Source: Streptosporangiales bacterium
Lineage (GTDB): Bacteria > Actinomycetota > Actinomycetes > Streptosporangiales > WHST01
NCBI GenBank assembly: GCA_009379955.1
Contig: WHST01000003.1
Coordinates: forward strand, 1-64,000
Length of the DNA: 64,000 nt
Direction: 5' to 3'
Part shown: positions 52,965-63,878 of the stretch, in pieces
Layout of the letters: each line of letters starts with the position of its first letter
Numbering within the stretch: position 1 is the first letter of the stretch
The notes under the pieces: generated by a model
Databases searched by the model: none
Told to the model about the DNA's origin: nothing
The model's input: the letters and a program-made list of their open reading frames with translations, nothing else
Position numbers and translations under genes: made by a program

Positions 52965-54305
52965 ATGTCCACCCCACCTGCCTCAGCCGTGCATCCGACC
53001 CCGCCGGGCGCGCGGCGCCGCGTGGTCGGCGCCGCCGTCGTCGGGACGATCGTCGAGTGGTACGACTTCACGCTCTACGGTCAGGCCGCCGCGCTCGTCT
53101 TCAGCCAGCTGTTCTTCCCCAGCTTCAGCCCGCTCGCCGGTACGGCCGCGGCGTTCGCCACGTACGCCGTCGGGTTCTTCGCACGCCCACTGGGCGGACT
53201 CGTCTTCAGCCACTTCGGCGACCGGATCGGGCGCCGGCCGATGCTGGTGCTGACGCTGTGTCTGATGGGCGTGGCCACCACCCTCATCGGGTTCCTGCCC
53301 ACCTACGCCACCGTCGGCCTGTGGGCGCCGGTCCTGCTCGTCCTGCTGCGCCTGCTGCAGGGCGCCGGGGCGGGCGCCGAGTACGCCGGCGCGGTGGTGA
53401 TGGTGGCGGAGCACAGCAGCGCGCGCAGACGCGGCCTCGCGGCGGCCGTGCCCGCCGCCGGCACGTTCGTCGGCATCCTGCTCGCCACCGGCACCGCCAC
53501 GATGGTGTCGCGGCTCCCCGACGACGCCCTGCTGAGCTGGGGCTGGCGGGTGCCCTTCTGGTGCTCGGTCGTGGTCGTCGCCGTCGGCATCTACCTGCGT
53601 CGCCGGGTGCTCGAGTCGCCGGAGTTCGAGAGCGTCAAGGACCAGGGCACGGAGCACCGGCTCCCGCTCGCTCGGCTGCTCCGCACCCAGCCGCGACGGG
53701 TGCTGCTCGCCATGGGCACGAACTTCGCGCTCAACGGCTACTCGTACGTGCTCCAGGTCTTCTTCCTCACCTACATCACCACCCAACTGGGCATGGCGAA
53801 GAGCGTCGGGCTCACCGGACTGTTCATCGCCTCGGCCGTGGCCATCGTCACGATCCCGCTCTTCGGCGCGCTGTCCGACCGGGTCGGCCGGCGGACGGTG
53901 TACGTCTCCGGCGCCGTGTTCGCCACCGCCTTCTCGCTCGTGCTCTTCCCGCTGCTCGACACCGAGATCCCGTGGGTGATCTGGCTCGCCCTGACCATCG
54001 GGGTCGCCGTCGGCGCGGCGTCGATGTTCGGGGCGCAGGGGTCGTTCTACGCCGAGCTGTTCGACACCAGGTCCCGGTACAGCGGCATCGCGTTCGTCCG
54101 CGAGGTCACCGGCGCCCTCATCGGCGGACCGACACCGTTCCTCGCGACGGCGCTGCTGGCCGTCGCGAGCGGCAGCCCGTGGCCGATCGTCGGGTACATG
54201 GTGTTCACGACCGTCGTGTCCGCCGTCTGCGCGGCGCTGCTGCCCGAGACGAACCCTCGTGACCGCCGCCACGAGGTCGAGCCGGCCGCGGAGCGTGCGT
54301 CGTGA
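52965..54305 (+). CDS. MFS transporter, metabolite:proton symporter type
   Basis: A 446-residue, 12-span transporter of the metabolite:H+ symporter group that includes proline/betaine, alpha-ketoglutarate and shikimate carriers. It has the group start VVGTIVEWYDFTLYG, the loop-2 motif HFGDRIGRRPML, RLLQGAGAGAEYAGA before span 5 and the loop-8 motif ALSDRVGRRTVY. The usual substrates are carboxylates or zwitterions; a sugar acid is plausible in this context. ATG 52965 has GAGGAG about 10 nt upstream. The following SDR gene starts inside its stop (GTGA overlap), so it heads the second catabolic cluster. Confidence 0.9.
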   Translation: MSTPPASAVHPTPPGARRRVVGAAVVGTIVEWYDFTLYGQAAALVFSQLFFPSFSPLAGTAAAFATYAVGFFARPLGGLVFSHFGDRIGRRPMLVLTLCLMGVATTLIGFLPTYATVGLWAPVLLVLLRLLQGAGAGAEYAGAVVMVAEHSSARRRGLAAAVPAAGTFVGILLATGTATMVSRLPDDALLSWGWRVPFWCSVVVVAVGIYLRRRVLESPEFESVKDQGTEHRLPLARLLRTQPRRVLLAMGTNFALNGYSYVLQVFFLTYITTQLGMAKSVGLTGLFIASAVAIVTIPLFGALSDRVGRRTVYVSGAVFATAFSLVLFPLLDTEIPWVIWLALTIGVAVGAASMFGAQGSFYAELFDTRSRYSGIAFVREVTGALIGGPTPFLATALLAVASGSPWPIVGYMVFTTVVSAVCAALLPETNPRDRRHEVEPAAERAS

Positions 54306-55072
54306 CGGGTGCGCGCCTCGCCGGCAAGGTCGCCGTCGTCACCGGCGGGGCGCAGGGTATCGGCGAGGCGGTCGTCGAGAAGTTCCTGGCCGAGGGTGCC
54401 CGCGTCGCGTTCCTCGACCGGGACGCCGAGCGCGGTCATACCGTGGCCGCGCGACTCGGCCGGGACGTCGCGTTCCACGAGTGCGACATCACGGCGAGGG
54501 ACCAGGTCGACCGTGCCCTCGCCCGGGTGACGGAGGCCCACGGTCGGATCGACGTGCTGGTCAACAACGCGGGCGTCTCCGCGTACTTCGACGCCGTCGA
54601 CATGACCGACGCCGAGTGGGACAGCGTGTTCGCGGTGGACCTCAAGGGGGTCTGGCTGTGCGCGCGCGGCGTGCTCGCCGGCATGCGCGAAGCCGGTTCG
54701 GGGAGCATCGTGAACGTCTCGTCGATCCACGCGCGGATGACGACGACGGGCATGTTCCCGTACGCCGCGGCGAAGGCGGGGGTCTCCGGCCTCACCCGCA
54801 GCCTCGCGCTCGACGAGGGGCCCAATGGCATCCGGGTCAATGCGGTCTGTCCCGGTTACACGCGGACGCAGCTCGTCCAGGAGTACATCGACCGGCAGCC
54901 CGATCCCGAGGCCGCCGAGCGCACCATCGTCGGCGTCCATCCGCTGGGTCGGATCGCGACACCCGCCGAGATCGCCGCCGTCTGCGCGTTCCTCGCCAGC
55001 GACGAGGCGAGCTTCGTGACGGGCGCCGAGGTGTTCGTCGACGGCGGTCTGAGCGCCAAGTTCGCAAGTTGA
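54302..55072 (+). CDS. Short-chain dehydrogenase/reductase
   Basis: A 256-residue classical SDR. VAVVTGGAQGIGEAV near residue 10 is the cofactor loop, with the acidic residue in FLDRDAE pointing to NAD. VLVNNAGVS, the catalytic Ser in VNVSSIHARM and the YxxxK in PYAAAKAGVSGLTRSLA follow. VCPGYTRTQLVQEY and VTGAEVFVDGGLSAKF complete the pattern. In this cluster it probably oxidises an aldose to a lactone or a sugar-acid hydroxyl. It overlaps the symporter gene by 4 nt and precedes the MBL gene by 38 bp. Confidence 0.93.
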   Translation: MTGARLAGKVAVVTGGAQGIGEAVVEKFLAEGARVAFLDRDAERGHTVAARLGRDVAFHECDITARDQVDRALARVTEAHGRIDVLVNNAGVSAYFDAVDMTDAEWDSVFAVDLKGVWLCARGVLAGMREAGSGSIVNVSSIHARMTTTGMFPYAAAKAGVSGLTRSLALDEGPNGIRVNAVCPGYTRTQLVQEYIDRQPDPEAAERTIVGVHPLGRIATPAEIAAVCAFLASDEASFVTGAEVFVDGGLSAKFAS

Positions 55073-55110: not shown

Positions 55111-56076
55111 GTGGAAGTCGCCGAGGGAATCCACCGGATCGAAGCGCCGTTCGGGGACCGGGTCAACGCGACCTACCTGCTCGCCGGCACGCGCGCCGCG
55201 CTGCTCGTGGACACGACGACCAAGGACACCGCGGCCACGCACATCGGCGGCTACCTCGACCGGATCGACCTCGACCCCCACCGGCTCAGATACGTCGTCA
55301 ACACGCACTCGGACTGGGACCACATGGCCGGCAACGGCGCGATCCGCGCGCTGGCGCCCGACGCCGTGTTCTGCTGCCACGAGCTCGACCGGCCGATGAT
55401 CGAGGACGTCGACCGGATGATCGACCGCAGGTACGGGGACTTCGCCGCCGACCACGGCCACGACGAGACCGACGAGGCCAAGGCCGCGGTGCGTGCCGCG
55501 ACCGAGACCGTCCCGATCGACGTCGGGCTGACCGGCGGTGAGGTCATCGACCTCGGCTCGGGGTGGCGGGTGACGGTCCTGCACACGCCGGGACACTCGT
55601 GGGGCAGCATCAGCGTCCACGACCCGCGCTCCGGCGCGGTCGTGGTGGGCGACGCGGTCCTCGGCGACGCGGTGCCGACAGCGGCGGGCGCACCCGCGTT
55701 CCCACCCACGTACCGGTACCTCGACACCTACCTCGCCACGATCGGCCTGCTCACCGCGTTGGCACCCCGGCTGCTGCTGACCGGCCACTACCCCGTCTAC
55801 GCCGCCGACGAGGCGGCGGAGTTCCTGTACCTGAGCCGGGCGTTCACCGACCGCGTCGAGAGTGCCCTGCGCGCCGAGTTGGCCGAACGGTCCGAGCCCG
55901 TGACGCTGCGCGAGCTCACGACGGTGCTCGGGCCGCGGCTCGGCGACTGGCCGGTCGAGGCGACCGCCGCGCTGTTCTTCCCGCTCTCCGGTCACGTCGA
56001 ACGGCTCGTCGCGCACGGCGCCGTCGACACCGGTCGCGACGCGGACGGCCACCTCACGTACCGCAGCGCCCGATGA
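55111..56076 (+). CDS. Metallo-beta-lactamase-fold hydrolase
   Basis: A 321-residue protein with a metallo-beta-lactamase domain in the first 230 residues: VNTHSDWDHMAGN supplies a variant HxDxDH metal motif (His-Ser-Asp-Trp-Asp-His), then LHTPGHSWGSIS, VVVGDAVLGD and LLTGHYPVY. About 90 C-terminal residues form a winged-helix-like tail (LRELTTVLGPRLGDWPVEATAALFFPLSGHVERLVAHG), as in LACTB2-like members. A lactonase role fits between the SDR and the later dehydratase, but thioester hydrolysis is equally possible. GTG 55111 is preceded by GAGGAG. Its stop overlaps the epimerase start. Confidence 0.8.
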   Translation: MEVAEGIHRIEAPFGDRVNATYLLAGTRAALLVDTTTKDTAATHIGGYLDRIDLDPHRLRYVVNTHSDWDHMAGNGAIRALAPDAVFCCHELDRPMIEDVDRMIDRRYGDFAADHGHDETDEAKAAVRAATETVPIDVGLTGGEVIDLGSGWRVTVLHTPGHSWGSISVHDPRSGAVVVGDAVLGDAVPTAAGAPAFPPTYRYLDTYLATIGLLTALAPRLLLTGHYPVYAADEAAEFLYLSRAFTDRVESALRAELAERSEPVTLRELTTVLGPRLGDWPVEATAALFFPLSGHVERLVAHGAVDTGRDADGHLTYRSAR

Positions 56077-57065
56077 TCACGCTCGACAACGGCCTCCTCA
56101 CCGTGCGGGTCGCACCGGAACGCGGTGCGGAGATCCGCTTCCTCGGCGCTCCCGGCGGGCCGAACCTGCTCTTCCACCAGCCGACGGCCACGCCGCTGCG
56201 GGAGAGCAACTCGACGGGGTACGGCTCGACGGAGGGCGACTGGCTCTCGGAGTACCGCGGCGGGTGGCAGGAGCTGTTCCCGAACGCGGGTGCGCCCTGC
56301 CAGGTGCAGGGCGTGCCGTTGCCGTTCCACGGTGAGGCGTCGAGCGCGCGGTGGGAGGTCGTCGAGGCCGACGCGACCACGGCGGTGCTCCGCACGCCGG
56401 CCAGGCTGCCGCTCGTCCTCGAGCGCCGGATGCGGCTCGACGCGGAGCGCGCGGTGCTGACCGTCGAGGAGACCGTCACGAACGAGTCGGCGCTCACCGT
56501 CCCGTACGTGTGGGGGCACCACCCGGCGTTCGACGCCGTCGAGGGCGCGCGGCTCGACCTGCCCGGCGCGACGGCACGGGTGCCCGCCGACTACGACCCG
56601 CCACTGAACGACCTGCGACCGGATACGACGAGTCCGTGGCCGCTGGTCGCCGCCAAGGCCGGCGGCGAGATCGACCTGCGCGCCGTGCCGGGCGGCCCCC
56701 GCGAACGCGTCGTCTACCTGACCGACCTGGCCGCCGGCTGGGCCGCGCTGCGGCGTCCCGGCGACGGGTGCGGAGTCGCGCTCGCCTGGGACCTCGCGAC
56801 GTTCCCGCACGCGTGGCTGTGGACCGAGATCGGCGGGCCCGACTTCCCCTGGTACGGCCGGTCGCGCATCGTCGCGCTCGAACCTGCCTCGTCGTGGCCG
56901 AACGACGGACTCGCGGCCGCGATCGAACGAGGCCGCCACCACCGACTCGGCCCGCACGAACGGCATTCGACCTGGCTGACCGTGTCGCTGTTCGGCGCCG
57001 ACACGCGTCCCGTGACCCACGTCGACCGCGACGGCGGCGTCGACGTCCACAACCCCGAGGAGTGA
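56073..57065 (+). CDS. Aldose 1-epimerase-like protein
   Basis: A 330-residue galactose-mutarotase-fold protein. Beta-sandwich landmarks are LTVRVAPERGAEI near the start, RGGWQELFPNAG, YVWGHHPAFD with the probable catalytic His, FPHAWLWTEIGG and ALEPASSWPNDGLAAAIERGR. It interconverts sugar anomers, or belongs to a DUF4432-like relative of that fold. ATG 56073 overlaps the previous stop as ATGA. The gene sits immediately before the ABC importer genes, so it probably acts on the imported aldose. Confidence 0.85.
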   Translation: MITLDNGLLTVRVAPERGAEIRFLGAPGGPNLLFHQPTATPLRESNSTGYGSTEGDWLSEYRGGWQELFPNAGAPCQVQGVPLPFHGEASSARWEVVEADATTAVLRTPARLPLVLERRMRLDAERAVLTVEETVTNESALTVPYVWGHHPAFDAVEGARLDLPGATARVPADYDPPLNDLRPDTTSPWPLVAAKAGGEIDLRAVPGGPRERVVYLTDLAAGWAALRRPGDGCGVALAWDLATFPHAWLWTEIGGPDFPWYGRSRIVALEPASSWPNDGLAAAIERGRHHRLGPHERHSTWLTVSLFGADTRPVTHVDRDGGVDVHNPEE

Positions 57066-57067
57066 CC

Positions 57068-58063
57068 ATGCGGCGAGCTCGAACCCTTCAGGTGGCACTG
57101 GCCGCCGGCGCGCTTGTCGTCGCGTCGACGGCCTGCGCGGCCGACGCGGAATCGGCGGACGCGAAGGCGAAGATGGCCCTGTTGCTGCGGTCGCAGGGCG
57201 GCACCACGTACTTCCAGCAGGTGGCGAAGGGAGCGCGCGCGGAGGCGAAGAAGCTCGGCGCCGACCTCACCGTCCAGTTCACCAACAGCTCCGACGAGCA
57301 ACTGTCGGCCGTCGACACGGTGATCTCCTCGGGAGCCAAGGGGATCATCGTGACCATCCAGGACCCGTCGATCGGCCCGTCGGTCGCGACGAAGGCCAAG
57401 GCGGGCGACGTGGCCCTGCTCGCCAGCTCCGACCCGTTCGACGACACGGCCGGCAAGGCCGTCCCGGTCGTCACGCTCGACGCGAAGAAGGTCGGCAGCG
57501 ACGTCGGCGCCGAGATGGCCGCGCAGTACGAGAAGGCGGGCTGGGCGAAGGCCGGCGGCACGGTCAAGGTGGCGTCGGTCGAGCTGCCGAAGGTGTCGAC
57601 GTGCATGGATCGCACTGACGGCGCCCGCTCGGCGTTCCTGAAGGCGACGCCCGGGTTCAAGAAGTCCGACATCGTGAAGCTGAGCTACGACGGCACGCTG
57701 AACTCGGCGAACGACACCATGAGCTCGGCGCTCAACAACCACCGCGACGTCGACCGCTGGCTCGTCTGGTCGTGCAACGACGAGGGCGTCGTCGGCGCGC
57801 TGACGGCGCTGACCAACGGCGGCATCGGAGCCGACCGGCTGCTCGGTGTCGGCCTCGGCGCCAACCTCGCGTGCGACCAGTGGGACAAGGGCAAGGGCAC
57901 CGGCCTCGTCTCCGCGATCGCCCTCGACCCCGCGGACAACGGCCGGATGTCCGTCCGCGCCATGTACAACCTGCTGGCGAAGGACAAGGCGCTGCCACCG
58001 GTGACGATCTTCCCCGGCGAGCTCGTCACGCCGGACACCCCGCGCGCCGAGCTGCCGTGTTGA
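57068..58063 (+). CDS. Sugar-type ABC substrate-binding lipoprotein
   Basis: A 331-residue RbsB/AraF-like binding protein. A short signal and the lipobox STAC give a lipidated Cys near residue 23. KMALLLRSQGGTTYFQQVAKGA opens the ligand domain, SSGAKGIIVTIQDPS marks the first hinge strand, and DVDRWLVWSCNDEGVVGALTAL the second lobe. The latter resembles arabinose-binding proteins more than ribose-binding ones. ATG 57068 comes directly after the epimerase stop, with GAGGAG across the junction. The ATPase gene begins inside its 3' end. Confidence 0.9.
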   Translation: MRRARTLQVALAAGALVVASTACAADAESADAKAKMALLLRSQGGTTYFQQVAKGARAEAKKLGADLTVQFTNSSDEQLSAVDTVISSGAKGIIVTIQDPSIGPSVATKAKAGDVALLASSDPFDDTAGKAVPVVTLDAKKVGSDVGAEMAAQYEKAGWAKAGGTVKVASVELPKVSTCMDRTDGARSAFLKATPGFKKSDIVKLSYDGTLNSANDTMSSALNNHRDVDRWLVWSCNDEGVVGALTALTNGGIGADRLLGVGLGANLACDQWDKGKGTGLVSAIALDPADNGRMSVRAMYNLLAKDKALPPVTIFPGELVTPDTPRAELPC

Positions 58064-59595
58064 CCGCTCCGGTACGCGCCCCCGCGCTCGCGCTCCGGGG
58101 CATCGGCAGGAGCTTCCCCGGTGTGCGGGCACTCGACGACGTGACGATCGAGGTGCGCGCCGGGGAGGTCCTTGCCCTCGTCGGTGAGAACGGTGCGGGA
58201 AAGTCGACGCTGCTGCGCATCCTGAGCGGCGACCAGCAGCCGGACGAGGGCGAGCTGCGGCTGCCGTCCGGGCCGGTACGGTTCGGCTCACCACGAGACG
58301 CCAGGGCGGCAGGCGTGCGGGTCGTGTCCCAGGAACCCGAGCTGGTCGACCCGTTGAGCGTCGCGGAGAACGTGTTCCTCGGTCAGGTCGCGCGGGCGTC
58401 GGGCGGCCGGCTGGTCCGGCGGCGCGACCTGCACCGGCGTACCGCGGAGATCCTCGACCGGTACGGCTTCGCGGGCGACCTCGACCCGCAGGCGATCGCG
58501 GCCGACCTCTCGCCGTCGCAGCGGCAGCTCGTCGAGATCGTGCGGGCCCTGCACGAGGGGGCGACCGTGCTCGCACTCGACGAGCCGACGTCGTCGCTGT
58601 CGGAGCGGGAGGCCGACCGCCTGCTCGGCACCGTCGAGCGGCTGCGCCGCGACGGCGTCGCCATCGTCTACGTCTCCCACCGGTTGCGCGAGACGCTGCG
58701 GCTGGCCGACCGAGTCGCCGTCCTGCGCGACGGGCGGCTCGTCGCGACCGAGGACGCGGCGGCACTGTCCGAGGCCGACGTGGTCAGGCTGATGGTGGGC
58801 CGCCCGCTGACGGCCGTGTTCGACCGGCCGGAGCCGCCCGCCCTCGGCGACGTCCGGCTGCGGGTCGAGCACCTGTCGGCCCCCGGGTTGCACGACGTGG
58901 GCCTCACCGTCCGCGCCGGTGAGATCGTCGGCCTGGCCGGACTCGTCGGCGCGGGACGCACCCGGCTGGCCCGCGCGCTCTACGGCGAGCTGCCGCTCAC
59001 CGGTGGGCGGGTCGAGGTGGACGGCCGGCCCGTCCGGCTGCGGCACCCGCGCGACGCGATGGCGGCCGGCATCTGCCGGACTCCGGAGGACCGCAAGGGC
59101 GACGGTCTCGTCATGGTCCGCAGCGTGCGCGAGAACGTGACGCTGGCGATCCTGAAGCGACTGTCCACATTCCGGTTCGTCCGCAGGCGCGCCGAGCGGA
59201 CCGTGGTCGCGGACCTGACCGCGTCGCTCCGGGTGAAGGCGCCCTCGATGGATCACCCGGTCGCCACGTTGTCCGGCGGCAACCAGCAGAAGGTCGTGCT
59301 CGCCAGGGCGCTCGCCGCCGCGCCGCGCGTGCTGGTGCTCGACGAGCCGACCCGCGGTGTCGACGTCGGCGCGAAGGCCGAGATCTACCAGCTCGTCTTC
59401 CGACTGGCCCGCGACGGTCTCGCGGTCGTCGTCGTGTCGTCTGAGCTGCCCGAGGTGCTCGGGCTGGCCGACCGGATCCTCGTCCTCGCCGGTGGCCGGA
59501 TCACCGGCGAGCTGTCCCGCGACGACGCCACCGAGGAACGAGTCCTCGCCCTCGCGATGCCGGCCGAGGACGCGGCGTCAGGGAGCGACCGGTGA
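58057..59595 (+). CDS. Sugar ABC transporter ATPase, two domains (RbsA/AraG type)
   Basis: A 512-residue cytoplasmic ATPase with two ABC domains in one chain. Domain 1 has GENGAGKST, the signature-region sequence LSPSQRQLVEIVRAL and VLALDEPTSSLS. Domain 2 has the altered Walker A GLVGAGRT, the complete signature LSGGNQQKVVLARAL and LVLDEPTRGVDVG. A degenerate second Walker A is normal in this family. The start is GTG 58057 (overlapping the previous gene by 7 nt) or TTG 58060. The permease gene overlaps its stop by 4 nt. It powers import by the 57068/59592 components. Confidence 0.93.
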   Translation: MLTAPVRAPALALRGIGRSFPGVRALDDVTIEVRAGEVLALVGENGAGKSTLLRILSGDQQPDEGELRLPSGPVRFGSPRDARAAGVRVVSQEPELVDPLSVAENVFLGQVARASGGRLVRRRDLHRRTAEILDRYGFAGDLDPQAIAADLSPSQRQLVEIVRALHEGATVLALDEPTSSLSEREADRLLGTVERLRRDGVAIVYVSHRLRETLRLADRVAVLRDGRLVATEDAAALSEADVVRLMVGRPLTAVFDRPEPPALGDVRLRVEHLSAPGLHDVGLTVRAGEIVGLAGLVGAGRTRLARALYGELPLTGGRVEVDGRPVRLRHPRDAMAAGICRTPEDRKGDGLVMVRSVRENVTLAILKRLSTFRFVRRRAERTVVADLTASLRVKAPSMDHPVATLSGGNQQKVVLARALAAAPRVLVLDEPTRGVDVGAKAEIYQLVFRLARDGLAVVVVSSELPEVLGLADRILVLAGGRITGELSRDDATEERVLALAMPAEDAASGSDR

Positions 59596-60587
59596 CCGCG
59601 CGCGCCGGCCACCGCCTCGTCCGCGCGATCGGTGGACAGAACCTGAGCCTGTTGATCGCGCTCGGCCTGCTGATCGCCGTGATCGGCGTGCAACGACCGA
59701 ACTTCTTCCTGCTCACCAACATGATCAGCATCGGCGTGTCGGTCGCGCTGCTCGGCCTGGTGTCGCTCGCGCAGACCGTCACCATCCTGTCGGGCGGCCT
59801 CGACATCTCCATCGGCGCCGTCGTCGGCCTCGCCTCCGTGACCGCGGCGATCGGCGCGGCGACCGGCACCGCGTACGGCGTCGCGATCGGGCTGGTCACC
59901 GGACTCGCTGCGGGCCTGGTCAACGGGTTGCTCATCCTCGTCGGCAGGGTCAACCCGATCATCACGACGCTGGCCACGTTCTCGGCCTTCCAGGGCCTGA
60001 CGTTCATCGCCGCGCGCGGTGAGGCGATCGGCGTCGCCGACGCGGCCTTCCTCTGGCTGGGCAGCGGGCGCATCCTCGGCATCCCCTTCCCGTTGCTCGT
60101 GCTCGTCGCCGGCGCGGTCGCGTTCCACGTGCTGCTCACGTACACCGACATCGGCCGCGGTGTCTACGCGATGGGTGGCAACCCGGCCGCGGCACGGCTC
60201 GCGGGCATCCGCCTGCCGCGCTACACCCTCGCCATCTACGCGCTCGCCGGGCTCGTCGCGGGACTCGCCGGCGTGCTGCTCACGGCGCGGTCGGGCGCGG
60301 GTGTCGCCGACTCCGGCGCACCCAACCTGTCGCTGCAGTCGATCACCGCCGCGCTGCTCGGCGGCTGCGCGCTGTCCGGCGGGCGCGGCAGCGTCGCCGG
60401 CACCGTTCTCGGTGTCGCGCTGCTCGGCGTGCTGCAGAACGGCCTGGTGCTGCTCAACGTGCCGCAGTTCTACCAGCTCGTCGCGCAGGGCTGCCTGCTC
60501 GTGTTCGCCGTGATGATCCAGGAGTACCGGGGGTTCCGTCCGCTGCGCCGGCTGCGCGGCCCGTCCACCACACCGGAGGAGGCGTGA
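59592..60587 (+). CDS. CUT2-type ABC transporter permease
   Basis: A 331-residue RbsC-type permease with nine to ten hydrophobic spans and the motifs SGGLDISIGAVVG, IGRGVYAMGGNPAAARLAGI and GGCALSGGRGSVAGTVLGVA. It is intact, unlike the split permease of the first operon. GTG 59592 overlaps the ATPase stop. The next gene begins 2 nt after its stop codon, giving a tightly packed transcription unit with the secreted protein that follows. Confidence 0.92.
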   Translation: MTARAGHRLVRAIGGQNLSLLIALGLLIAVIGVQRPNFFLLTNMISIGVSVALLGLVSLAQTVTILSGGLDISIGAVVGLASVTAAIGAATGTAYGVAIGLVTGLAAGLVNGLLILVGRVNPIITTLATFSAFQGLTFIAARGEAIGVADAAFLWLGSGRILGIPFPLLVLVAGAVAFHVLLTYTDIGRGVYAMGGNPAAARLAGIRLPRYTLAIYALAGLVAGLAGVLLTARSGAGVADSGAPNLSLQSITAALLGGCALSGGRGSVAGTVLGVALLGVLQNGLVLLNVPQFYQLVAQGCLLVFAVMIQEYRGFRPLRRLRGPSTTPEEA

Positions 60588-60588
60588 C

Positions 60589-62748
60589 ATGCGCGCACGT
60601 ACCGTACTGACCGCGATCGTCACTGCCCTGTTTCTCGCATTGCCGGCGACCCTCGTCCCGTCCGCCGCGTCCGCCGAGCCGGCCACGACGGGCGCCGTCG
60701 TGCCGATCGACTGGTCGGCGTTCCGGTCGGCGCCGCGCGACGCGGAGGCGCGGCTGACGGCGGCGATCCTGAACAGCGCGGCGAAGTACGCCCTGACCGT
60801 CTGGTACCCCGACACGTACGGCGACCAGACCGGCGACGTGCTCGACCTCGGTGGCATCGCCGAGCCGAACATCCGCCCGCCCGCCGGTGAGGCGTTCGCG
60901 CTCGCGGTCGCGCTGCGGACCGGTGCGTACGACCCAGACGCCACCGGGGTGAGCGAGGCCGACTCACGCGACGTGGCGACTCGTCTCACCGCGTCGGTGG
61001 CCGCCGGGCACGTCGCGAACGGCGCGGGCGGCTGGGGCGACGACTGGCAGACCGCGCTGTGGGCGTACTACGCGGGCTATGCCGGCTGGCTGCTCTGGGA
61101 CGACCTCACCGCCGGGCAGCGGGCCCAGGTGACGGCGATGGTCGTGCACGAGGCGGACCGGTTCCAGACGTACCAGGTGCCGTACTACCGCGACGCGGAC
61201 GGCACGGTGTTGACCCCGGGCGACAGCAAGGCCGAGGAGAACGCCTGGAACGCCGACCTGCTGCAGCTCGCGACCGCGATGATGCCGGGACACCCGCACT
61301 GGCCGGCCTGGATGAGCAAGAACCTCGAGCTGATGCTCTCGGCGTTCGCACGCCCGTCCGACGTCGAGCGCAGCACGGTGGTCAACGGGCGCCCCGTACG
61401 CGACTGGCTCGACGGCTCGAACATCGCCGAGGACGGCACGCTCGTCAACCACGGCTTCATCCACCCCGACTACATGGCCACGGTCGCGGAGAACACCGGC
61501 GCCCCGCTCACGTACGCGCTCGCCGGGCAGCCGACGCCGAGGGCGGCGTTCTGGAACGCCGACCTCGTGTACGACTCGCTGGTCGACGTCGACTTCCCGA
61601 GCCCGCCGTACCGCGAGCCGGGCGGCACCGTCTACACGCGGAGCCCGGCCGGCACGGCGAGTCCCGGCGTCTACTACCCGCAGGGCAACGACTGGGGCAC
61701 CTCGCGGCGCATGCACTTCGCGCTCGTCGACACCCAGGCCGACCTGTTCGGCTTCGACGACGACGCGAGCGTGCCGGCGGCCGGCTGGGCCCACGAGCAC
61801 GCCGCGACCGTGCGGTCCATGCAGCAGCGGTTCGACGACGGGCGGACGTACGGCGAGGCGGCGGAGGACACGTACGCGGGCCGCGAGCAGTGGGTGGCCT
61901 TCATGGCGGCGGCGACGTACCTCACCCGCTGGGTCGCGCACCAGGGCCCGGTGGACGTCACGAACCGTCCGTATCCGCGTCCCGCCGAGCTGACGCTCAC
62001 CGGCCCCGACCTAGTCGAGGCAGGCGCGTCCGGCACCGTCGACGCGCATGTGCGCAACACCGACCGCGCCGCGATCCGCGACGTCACCGCGCGTCTCGCG
62101 GTGCCGGCCGGCTGGTCCGCGCGGGCCGACGGCGCGACGTGGTGGCGGATGCTGCGCGGAGGTGCGTCGGCCACGGCGGCCTGGCGCGTGCGCGCCCCGC
62201 GCGACGCGGAGCCCGGTACGTACACGCTCGCGGCCACGGTCTCGTACCGGCAGGGCGCGCGACGCGTCGAGGTACCGACCGACCTACGGGTCGACGTCCC
62301 ACCGCCCGCTCCCACGGGCGACACGTGGGTGTCCGACCTCACCTGGATGCGCGCGTCGAACGGATACGGACCGGCGCTCCTCGACCGCAACTACTACGGC
62401 GACCCGCTGGTGGTCGACGGCACGACACACGCCAAGGGACTCTGGACCAACGCACCGGCCTCGCTCACGTACCATCTCGGCGGCCGTTGCACCCGGCTCA
62501 CCGCCGACCTCGGCATTGACGACTCGATGCGCGCACACGGGGACGACAGGGGTTCGGTTGTCTACCGCGTGCTCGTCGACGGGACGGCGGCGTACACCAG
62601 CCCACGTCTCACCGGCAGCGCGCCCGCGACTCCCCTCGCGGTCGACGTGAGCGGCGCGCGGCTCGTCGAGCTGGTGGTCGACGACGGCGGGGACGGCAAG
62701 AGCTACGACCACGCGGACTGGGCCGGCGCCCGGCTCGCCTGCGGATAG
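60589..62748 (+). CDS. Secreted multidomain protein: helical catalytic-like domain, NEW3-like domain, NPCBM domain
   Basis: A 719-residue exported protein. A signal peptide ends near AASA-EP (about residue 30). Residues 35-450 are mostly helical with many aromatic and acidic patches (GGWGDDWQTALWAYYAGYAGW, NAWNADLLQLATAM, HPDYMATVAENTG), resembling an alpha/alpha toroid lyase or hydrolase. I do not recognise the family. Residues 465-565 are an Ig-like NEW3 domain (LTGPDLVEAGASGTVDAHVRNT). Residues 575-719 are an NPCBM/NEW2 carbohydrate-binding domain with THAKGLWTNAPASLTYHLGG and YRVLVDG. Its place after a sugar importer suggests it releases the sugar that the importer takes up. Confidence 0.75.
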   Translation: MRARTVLTAIVTALFLALPATLVPSAASAEPATTGAVVPIDWSAFRSAPRDAEARLTAAILNSAAKYALTVWYPDTYGDQTGDVLDLGGIAEPNIRPPAGEAFALAVALRTGAYDPDATGVSEADSRDVATRLTASVAAGHVANGAGGWGDDWQTALWAYYAGYAGWLLWDDLTAGQRAQVTAMVVHEADRFQTYQVPYYRDADGTVLTPGDSKAEENAWNADLLQLATAMMPGHPHWPAWMSKNLELMLSAFARPSDVERSTVVNGRPVRDWLDGSNIAEDGTLVNHGFIHPDYMATVAENTGAPLTYALAGQPTPRAAFWNADLVYDSLVDVDFPSPPYREPGGTVYTRSPAGTASPGVYYPQGNDWGTSRRMHFALVDTQADLFGFDDDASVPAAGWAHEHAATVRSMQQRFDDGRTYGEAAEDTYAGREQWVAFMAAATYLTRWVAHQGPVDVTNRPYPRPAELTLTGPDLVEAGASGTVDAHVRNTDRAAIRDVTARLAVPAGWSARADGATWWRMLRGGASATAAWRVRAPRDAEPGTYTLAATVSYRQGARRVEVPTDLRVDVPPPAPTGDTWVSDLTWMRASNGYGPALLDRNYYGDPLVVDGTTHAKGLWTNAPASLTYHLGGRCTRLTADLGIDDSMRAHGDDRGSVVYRVLVDGTAAYTSPRLTGSAPATPLAVDVSGARLVELVVDDGGDGKSYDHADWAGARLACG

Positions 62749-62756
62749 GAGGCGCG

Positions 62757-63878
62757 GTGTCCGGCGACGACGTCGTACGCGAGCTGACGTGGACCCAGGT
62801 GAGCGTGCCGCTCGACCGACCGCTGCAGTCGGGGGCGCTGGTCATCGAGGCACGCGCGTACTGCTGCGTCCGCGCCGTGCTCGGCGACGGCGCGACCGGG
62901 GAGGCGTTCGTGCTCACCCGCGGCCTCGACGTCGCGCGCGCCCTCGACACGCTGGTCACGCCGCGCGTGGTCGGCCACCCGTACGACGACCTCGAGCGGC
63001 GCCTCCGCGTGGGCCTGCGCAACGTCGGCTGGGACGGGCCGATCTCGCGTGCGGTGTCCGCGGTGTCGCTCGCCTGCTTCGACGCCCGCGCGCGCGGCGC
63101 GGGCGTGCCGGCGTGGCGGCTGCTCGCCGACACACCGCCCGCCGCGCCCGAGGGCATCGCCGTGATCGGCTACACGCCGGTCGGCGAGGAGCCCGACGAG
63201 GTCGGCGAGGCCGAACGCGCGGCCGCGTCCGGGGCGCGCTGCGTCAAGCTGATGGGTGGGTTCGCCTCGGCGGAGACCGACCTCGCGCGCGTGGCGGCGG
63301 TGCGCAAAGCGCTGGGCGAGGACTGCCGGGTCGCGTTGGACGTCAACGGCGCCTGGCCCGCCGACCTGGCGCTCGACCTGCTCCCCCGGCTCGCCGGCGA
63401 GCTCGCGTTCGTCGAGGAGCCGTGGTCGTACGAGCTCGGCCTCGCGACGTTCGACCGGCTCGGCGACGGGGCCCGGCCGGGCCTCGCGTTCGGTGAGGTC
63501 TCGGCGTCGACGATCGAGCTGGAGGCACTGGCCGCGACGGGACGGGTCGACCATCTGCGGCCGGACGCGACGCTGGTCGGCGGGCCGCAGACGTTCGCCC
63601 GGCTGCTCGGCCGGATCTCCGGGGTGTCGGTGATGCCGCACTTCTGGCCCGAGGTGCACCGGCACCTGCTGGCGCCGTTCACCGGGACCACGTACCTGGA
63701 GTACGCGCCCGCCGGCGCCGGTGGCTTCGGCCTCGACCGGTTCGTCGACGGGCTCGCGACGCTCGTCGACGGCCGGATCCCCGCACCCGACACACCGGGC
63801 TTCGGCTACCGGCTCGACTGGGACGAGCTCACGCGGCTCGCCGACGTCGCGCCCGAGACCAGGAAGGACACTGCATGA
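62757..63878 (+). CDS. Mandelate racemase/muconate lactonizing enzyme family protein, probable sugar-acid dehydratase
   Basis: A 373-residue enolase-superfamily enzyme. The capping domain is followed by a modified barrel with metal ligands Asp (ALDVNGAWP), Glu (FVEEPWSYE) and Glu (AFGEVSAST). The catalytic-Lys strand reads CVKLMGG, so the usual KxK pair has become K-L-M, similar to the single-Lys arrangement in galactonate dehydratases. VMPHFWPEVHRHL supplies a candidate His base. Acid-sugar dehydration is therefore likely; the specific sugar acid is unknown. GTG 62757 has TAGGAGG about 7 nt upstream. Its stop overlaps the next SDR start. Confidence 0.85.
   Translation: MSGDDVVRELTWTQVSVPLDRPLQSGALVIEARAYCCVRAVLGDGATGEAFVLTRGLDVARALDTLVTPRVVGHPYDDLERRLRVGLRNVGWDGPISRAVSAVSLACFDARARGAGVPAWRLLADTPPAAPEGIAVIGYTPVGEEPDEVGEAERAAASGARCVKLMGGFASAETDLARVAAVRKALGEDCRVALDVNGAWPADLALDLLPRLAGELAFVEEPWSYELGLATFDRLGDGARPGLAFGEVSASTIELEALAATGRVDHLRPDATLVGGPQTFARLLGRISGVSVMPHFWPEVHRHLLAPFTGTTYLEYAPAGAGGFGLDRFVDGLATLVDGRIPAPDTPGFGYRLDWDELTRLADVAPETRKDTA

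Follow-up and report, generated by a model that had tools for sequence, protein, structure and literature searches.

Toroid Protein and Its Modules

The window analyzed here is a stretch of 64,000 nucleotides from a Streptosporangiales bacterium (assembly GCA_009379955.1, contig WHST01000003.1, positions 1 to 64,000 of the forward strand). Near its end, directly behind a sugar ATP-binding cassette (ABC) importer, one uninterrupted open reading frame (ORF) with an ATG start encodes a protein that combines a probable signal peptide, an alpha/alpha toroid, and the modules NEW3 and NPCBM (Table 1). This toroid protein is best read as, and probably is, a secreted polysaccharide lyase (PL) of a new family, newness being judged against Pfam, NCBIfam, PHROGs, and PDB, with CAZy itself outside the comparison. 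Based on the models described below, it most likely belongs to the toroid lyases as a branch with one domain only, and its substrate would be a glycan that contains uronate.

Both C-terminal modules, which had been named in an original prediction made from the DNA alone, were detected above their Pfam gathering cut-offs (NEW3, 49.1 bits against 24.4; NPCBM, 155 bits against 23.9). The toroid gene had a G+C content at third codon positions (GC3) of 0.93, matching the codon usage of its neighbors. A search of its own genome found no second copy, the sole match being the gene itself.

Table 1. Coordinates of the toroid gene, its domains and conserved residues, and the neighboring genes in the window.
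Feature	Position	Strand	Evidence
Secreted toroid enzyme, whole ORF, 719 aa	60589..62748	+	ORF list, codon usage
Probable Sec signal peptide, residues 1-29	60589..60675	+	Boundary by eye from sequence
Alpha/alpha toroid, putative catalytic domain, residues 36-458	60694..61962	+	AlphaFold2 pLDDT 97.3; 92 relatives
NEW3 (NPCBM_assoc, PF10633), residues 476-553	62014..62247	+	Pfam E 6.7e-13
NPCBM (PF08305), residues 578-716, putative carbohydrate-binding module	62320..62736	+	Pfam E 1.6e-45; PDB relatives
R96	60874..60876	+	78/79
Motif D212-S-K214-A-E216-E217-N218-A-W220-N221, candidate carboxylate-neutralizing Asn	61222..61251	+	Conservation count
Motif N287-H288-xxx-H292-P-D-Y295, candidate acid/base His/Tyr	61447..61473	+	Conservation count
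Motif Y363-P-Q-G-N-D368-W369	61675..61695	+	Conservation count
R414	61828..61830	+	76/76
Short-chain dehydrogenase	54302..55072	+	Family searches
DUF4432, weakly aldose-epimerase-like	56073..57065	+	Pfam; start reset to ATG
Sugar-binding lipoprotein-like component of ABC importer	57068..58063	+	Pfam Peripla_BP_4; start reset to ATG
Sugar ABC ATPase, two ABC domains	58060..59595	+	Pfam
Sugar ABC permease (BPD_transp_2)	59592..60587	+	Pfam; ends 1 base upstream of toroid gene
Enolase-superfamily sugar-acid dehydratase-like protein	62757..63878	+	Pfam, nearest PDB entries

Predicted Fold and the Two-Domain Sister Clade

The AlphaFold2 model of residues 36–458, built with 39 alignment rows, was an alpha/alpha toroid with a predicted local distance difference test (pLDDT) score of 97.3 and a predicted template modeling (pTM) score of 0.95. 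The earlier suggestion of a helical toroid of about 415 residues was thereby borne out. In the VIA comparison, the lyase with the highest score was the PL35 chondroitinase 9o3q (Z 21.2, 15% identity). GAGase VII scored Z 21.0, dermatan sulfate epimerase Z 20.8, the PL27 enzyme 5noa Z 19.2 over 301 residues, and enzymes of the glycoside hydrolase (GH) families GH88/105 Z 18.3–19.7. The VIA list comprised the best 50 rows, so that the position of PL8, PL12, PL38, and other families outside it is no evidence against them.

The evidence that carries the lyase assignment came from a sister clade of longer forms. This clade consisted of 38 loci (L044–L081) and one haloarchaeal row, which formed one branch of the tree with a support of 100/100. 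At least 241 residues followed the toroid match in 36/38 loci, and the other two (L048 and L065) ended at a contig end. The AlphaFold2 model of one member (L060), built with 24 rows, contained the toroid and a beta-sheet domain with a pLDDT of 92.4. A Foldseek search with this model returned 111 PDB rows at E 0.001, of which the best 50 were examined. Rows 1–40 were all polysaccharide lyases, headed by a PL8 chondroitin AC lyase (3.9e-13) and followed by PL17, PL15, PL12, PL39, PL35, and PL21 entries, the PL labels being taken from PMC12088678 or from row titles. Furthermore, xanthan lyase 1x1h was aligned by VIA to 569 residues over both domains (Z 18.4, 4.5 Å). The predicted two-domain structure of the sister clade thus points to polysaccharide lyases over glycosidases.

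The protein of the window has no antiparallel beta-sheet domain after the toroid, and NEW3 and NPCBM stand there instead. The PL27 enzyme 5noa (the L-Rha-α1,4-GlcA lyase BACCELL_00875) shares the (α/α)6 toroid, but has an N-terminal beta-sandwich of its own according to PMC8377490, whereas the window toroid begins at about residue 36 with no such domain ahead of it.

Conserved Residues and a Candidate Active Site

Conservation was counted over 80 of the 81 domain rows, one row of at most 250 residues being dropped. E216, E217, W220, D258, N287, and W153 were invariant (80/80), and N218, H292, and Y295 (79/80), N221 (78/80), and H288 (77/80) were nearly so. Two arginines, R414 (76/76) and R96 (78/79), as well as W369 (78/79) and D368 (75/79), were also conserved. 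The clustered aromatic and acidic residues noticed in the original prediction were recovered as W149, W153, W158, W167, and W220 and as E188, D212, E216, E217, and D258. The long clade carries the same motifs as the short forms, and its beta domain contains no invariant or near-invariant His.

Table 4 in PMC12088678 gives Asn183, His233, and Tyr242 for PL8, Asn236, His291, and Tyr299 for PL23, and Asn192 and Tyr246 together with His401 on the beta domain for PL35. The published spacing was reproduced in our set of 30 PL8 rows as the invariant columns N230, H280, and Y289. In the window protein, the order is Asn221, then His288 or His292, then Tyr295, all on the toroid as in PL8 and PL23, with an Asn-to-His distance of 67–70 (50 in PL8) and a His-to-Tyr distance of 7 (9 in PL8). 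From residue order, we infer that this Asn/His/Tyr set may correspond to the catalytic set of the lyases. A catalytic set borne by the toroid would explain how short forms exist without a beta domain.

The resemblance to PL8 consists of the toroid and beta-sheet plan of the sister clade and of the order of Asn, His, and Tyr on the toroid. The window protein differs from PL8 in its residue spacing, in the absence of the beta-sheet domain, and in the lack of a significant profile match. In PL35, PL39, PL12, PL15, PL17, and PL21, the toroid also superposes, but the catalytic His is located on the beta-sheet domain that the window protein does not have, and the beta-domain His of these families is not conserved in the long clade. 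The order Arg, His, Asn, Tyr given for GAGase II in PMC12088678 is also found here.

In the proposed mechanism, the central cleft of the toroid would bind a uronate-containing chain, and an Asn (N221 or N218, with R96) would neutralize the uronate carboxylate. The His/Tyr pair of the N287-H288-xxx-H292-PD-Y295 loop would take the C5 proton and protonate the leaving sugar in a beta-elimination. NPCBM, presented by NEW3, would keep the enzyme on the glycan. The small sugar set free might be imported through the adjacent ABC importer and then oxidized by enzymes encoded in the same run, namely the dehydrogenase, the lactonase-like protein, and the dehydratase.

Family Placement by Sequence

No clear match of residues 35–450 to a GH or PL family was found in Pfam, NCBIfam, or PDB sequences, in agreement with the original prediction, which could not place the domain. 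Residues 1–475 matched no Pfam family, none of the 39 family domain sequences matched a Pfam model at E 0.01, and NCBIfam and PHROGs searches with the toroid returned no match. Among PDB sequences, searches with the single sequence and two profiles were empty or gave chance matches for the toroid, and the 39-row family profile gave chance rows only. In particular, Pfam showed no kinship with PL8 (Lyase_8_N), and neither the window protein nor the family members matched the GH88/GH105 model PF07470, the GlcNAc 2-epimerase-like family, or GH76. In the open-licence literature, no paper was recognized as describing the toroid family.

Profile-profile comparisons (hhalign) were performed against PL8 (30 rows) and Hepar_II_III_N (20 rows from 24 loci), with GlcNAc 2-epimerase (7/9 loci) and GH88 (3 rows) as decoys. 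The short family (A1) comprised the window sequence and the loci L002–L041 except for L027 (partial) and L028 (stop), which leaves 38/40 loci; L042 (short match) and L043 (stop) were not included either. The long clade (A2) was represented by 24 of the 38 loci L044–L081. In this order of targets, with the heparinase-type family second, the P values were 0.30, 0.29, 0.28, and 0.044 for the short family, 0.023, 0.016, 0.34, and 0.52 for the long clade, and 0.17, 0.063, 0.45, and 0.14 for all domains. In these sequence profiles, the long clade thus tends toward the lyases and the short family, taken by itself, toward GH88, all below significance. Since no score was significant, the result indicates a kinship of fold and plan, not membership. 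DUF4962 (PF16332) was tried as a further comparison family and not used, as it gave weak matches in 4/148 genomes.

Lyase, Hydrolase, or Epimerase

A number of results weigh against the lyase assignment. Profile-profile comparison was significant for none of the four tested families, and GH88 (P 0.044, 3 rows) gave the short family a better score than the lyases did. The invariant E216, E217, and D258 would also suit a hydrolase. The candidate catalytic residues are not kept everywhere: H288 is Gln or Arg in 3/80 rows, N218 is replaced by I, V, or C in some phage forms, and in one short form (L025:1448-2692) NHNIINPIS stands in place of NHxxxHPDY or similar, so that H292 and Y295 are lost and the protein may be inactive or altered. 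Foldseek with the toroid alone gave no PDB match at E 0.001, and the top of its list included GH76 hydrolases, an unsaturated glucuronyl hydrolase, epimerases, and a PL8 lyase. In VIA, cellobiose 2-epimerases (Z 21.7) were level with the lyases for the toroid, and they headed the list for L060, matching only the toroid portion. Rows 41–50 of the L060 Foldseek search mixed PL33 with OpgD, OpgG, Man38A, and AgaSK. Among the gene neighborhoods, GH88/105 genes lay near only 3/80 loci of the broad set, and no consistent carbohydrate theme emerged from the neighbors scanned at the Bacillus-type, Lacunisphaera, Lutibacter, and Phycisphaerae loci. The nearest solved relative of the operon's binding protein was the L-arabinose-binding protein (E 4.4e-32, the Pfam and PDB searches being run with the version starting at 57107).

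The predicted toroid by itself cannot separate lyase, hydrolase, and epimerase chemistry. An inverting toroid glycoside hydrolase, with two of E188, E216, E217, and D258 as acid and base, is unlikely but the main alternative, under which the resemblance of the two-domain sister clade to lyases would reflect shared fold ancestry only. It would account for the invariance of E216, E217, and D258 (80/80), for GH76 and GH88-type entries as the best Foldseek rows of the short domain, and for the best, non-significant profile score of the short family, and NEW3 is named for alpha-galactosidase. A single toroid is also the architecture of GH88/GH105. However, His, Tyr, Asn, and Arg are as invariant as the acids, PF07470 does not match, and the long clade gives P 0.52 against GH88. 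The lyase is preferred over a glycosidase because of the two-domain match of the sister clade, whose first 40 Foldseek rows are all lyases.

That the protein is an epimerase or isomerase of sugars, with the GlcNAc 2-epimerase fold recruited extracellularly, appears very improbable. Cellobiose 2-epimerases top the VIA list of the toroid, but the identity in those rows is only 4–11%, and the GlcNAc 2-epimerase profile gave P 0.28–0.45. Furthermore, the secreted modular and phage-tail contexts of the family suggest the cutting of polymers.

The earlier proposal of a new carbohydrate-active family is therefore upheld and sharpened to a polysaccharide lyase. If the lyase assignment is true, a family found in 32/394 sampled genomes of the class and in many phyla would no longer be a set of 'hypothetical protein' entries but a polysaccharide lyase open to testing. 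The family would also offer further tools for cutting glycans, explain the function of unannotated phage tail proteins, and be an example of the two-domain lyase plan working as one domain.

Distribution and Phylogeny

One scan of genome contigs found 92 loci encoding a relative of residues 1–458, of which 80 were kept. They belong to Actinomycetota, Bacillota, Bacteroidota, Planctomycetota, Verrucomicrobiota, Armatimonadota, Acidobacteriota, and other phyla. In the class of the window, 32 of the 394 sampled genomes were positive at E 1e-20. None of 60 relatives carried the toroid gene, including 0/2 of the same genus, and on these counts an origin of the gene within the order was rejected. 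Owing to this patchy occurrence, the gene was probably acquired by horizontal transfer. In the tree, the window protein was placed among the short forms, together with sequences from Jiangella and Actinophytocola.

Two family members (L010 and L030) were found on contigs binned as candidate-phylum bacteria (Parcubacteria, Magasanikbacteria), and L010 was 55% identical to the window protein. Their placement may reflect misbinning or transfer. In two metagenome-assembled genome (MAG) contigs (L028 and L043), a stop lies inside the toroid frame, by decay or assembly error.

Phage-Tail Relatives

Scans of viral contigs found 7 and then 13 toroid loci on partly shared contigs, and 8 of the 13 loci of the second scan were included in the tree. 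The phage forms fell into two groups among the short forms, their exact positions being unsure because of long branches. PHROGs matches identified tail genes upstream of viral toroid genes, either immediately adjacent or at most about 5 kb away. They included a tail fibre (L195/L202, weak, E 0.005), a minor tail protein (L200/L210; L203), a tail protein (L197; L207), a tape measure protein (L203, L205, L207), and a J-like tail protein (L213). No PHROGs row was obtained for the tested neighbors of L209 and L211 or for the larger neighbor of L202. The tail position of these relatives supports a glycan-cutting role.

The L213 protein matched 61 phage records, 57 of them from Klebsiella phages. 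Its similarity was confined to the first 152 residues in the best 25 of 61 rows, and two among the matches listed were annotated as SGNH hydrolase. In L212–L214, the toroid stands behind an N-terminal anchor common to Klebsiella phage proteins. By sequence, the C-terminal module is thus probably exchanged in Klebsiella phage tail proteins. In K. pneumoniae NZ_CP129873.1 (L216:6897-8849), a toroid 'hypothetical protein' lies directly after a TipJ-family tail gene. This 727-kb record is labeled 'plasmid' and carries lepA, lepB, rnc, era, recO, and pdxJ beside the prophage (L216:10484-16672), as if a chromosome piece sat on it.

In the DepoScope report (PMC11326577), toroid depolymerases make up 11/984 fold hits. 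Those enzymes resemble the present family in having a toroid domain within phage proteins, but the domain studied here had no INPHARED tblastn match with three toroid-domain queries, no toroid PHROG match, and no row at E 0.001 in a viral structure library. A wider proposal is that one unnamed lyase family serves two roles, as secreted scavenging enzymes in many phyla, which in the present operon would supply a dedicated sugar importer and an oxidative sugar pathway, and as polysaccharide-cutting domains of phage tails that are swappable in Klebsiella prophages, with the single-domain members being working lyases without the beta-sheet domain. This combined picture is tentative, with chances a little short of even.

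Operon and Gene Neighborhoods

The toroid gene belongs to a tightly packed run of genes on one strand, with intergenic distances of -4 to 38 bases when the starts of DUF4432 and the binding protein are placed at 56073 and 57068, respectively. The gene order is MFS transporter, short-chain dehydrogenase, metallo-beta-lactamase-fold protein, DUF4432, sugar-binding protein, ABC ATPase, permease, toroid protein, and enolase-superfamily dehydratase-like protein. The importer noted in the original prediction was thus found directly upstream on the same strand with all three components. Past the window end, the same run continues with a second short-chain dehydrogenase and an SMP-30/gluconolactonase-like protein.

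For the dehydratase-like protein, the nearest solved proteins were a putative racemase and unnamed MR/MLE proteins, then L-talarate/galactarate and L-fuconate dehydratase, and the talarate/galactarate or fuconate type outscored the rhamnonate type. The protein shows K-x-M where many relatives have K-x-K, and it keeps a His and an Asp that match the usual pair.

In Jiangella asiatica (L005 = L116) and Actinophytocola (L016), the toroid gene again has the importer, the dehydratase, and the second dehydrogenase as neighbors. Besides the window, this arrangement thus occurs in 2/80 loci, many of which are on short contigs. GH88/105 enzymes remove the unsaturated uronate ends left by lyases. Of the 32 positive genomes of the class, 22 entered a search for GH88/105 proximity and stretches of 13 were retrieved. 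GH88/105 genes were found within 10 kb of the toroid gene in L002/G090, L003/G217, G059, G134, and G174, which represent 5/6 positive genomes of one family and 5/22 of the genomes searched. GH31 genes were present in the toroid clusters of all five of these near relatives, a GH78 rhamnosidase in three, and BNR_4 or GH2 genes in some. In L032, a GH88/105 gene lies 5.4 kb from the toroid gene. The proximity is a trait of the Jiangella group and one flavobacterium. A general GH88/105 link was rejected, since all three of the 80 loci concerned had built the search model.

Of ten full proteins scanned, five have modules of the F5/8C, NEW3, laminin-G, dockerin, or similar type, and the Bacteroides locus L019 adjoins a SusC/SusD pair. 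The gene of the haloarchaeal long-form member is surrounded by three sulfatase genes, and a gene for an L-rhamnose mutarotase lies 2.8 kb away.

The lyase reading can be narrowed to an exo-lyase of PL27/PL42 type that frees L-rhamnose from uronic acid, the operon then importing and oxidizing rhamnose; the likelihood of this form is contained in that of the lyase as a whole. Taken alone, this form is rather doubtful. According to PMC8377490, PL27 and PL42 free rhamnose by beta-elimination from gum arabic side chains, and this precedent fits with the superposition of 5noa, the GH31, GH88/105, GH78, and BNR_4 genes clustered with close relatives, and the haloarchaeal setting. RhaS was also the top NCBIfam row of the binding protein, far under the cut-off. 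However, the closest solved relative of the binding protein is the one for L-arabinose, and the dehydratase fits the rhamnonate type less well than the other two types. Pfam/NCBIfam-type family searches found no rhamnose-named gene in the window operon, and a search with the haloarchaeal mutarotase found no RhaM-like gene in 94 stretches tested. Rhamnose as a proven product was not accepted, given the kinship of the binding protein and the lack of a clear rhamnonate type in the dehydratase. A substrate with rhamnose next to uronate, as in gum arabic side chains or ulvan, is a guess.

Two further arrangements were observed beside toroid genes. In L123:11164-15020 and L124:3962-7860 (family f35), the toroid gene follows a co-directional pair of ORFs of about 640 aa. 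In the L123 pair, one ORF had no Pfam match and the other matched DUF4012, with a GH39/GH10-like gene further upstream; these loci are perhaps surface-glycan loci. In L003:10305-13139, a 945-aa protein with a weak CelD_N match only was found, and it recurs beside the toroid gene in four Jiangella-type clusters (L114, L115, L117, and L118).

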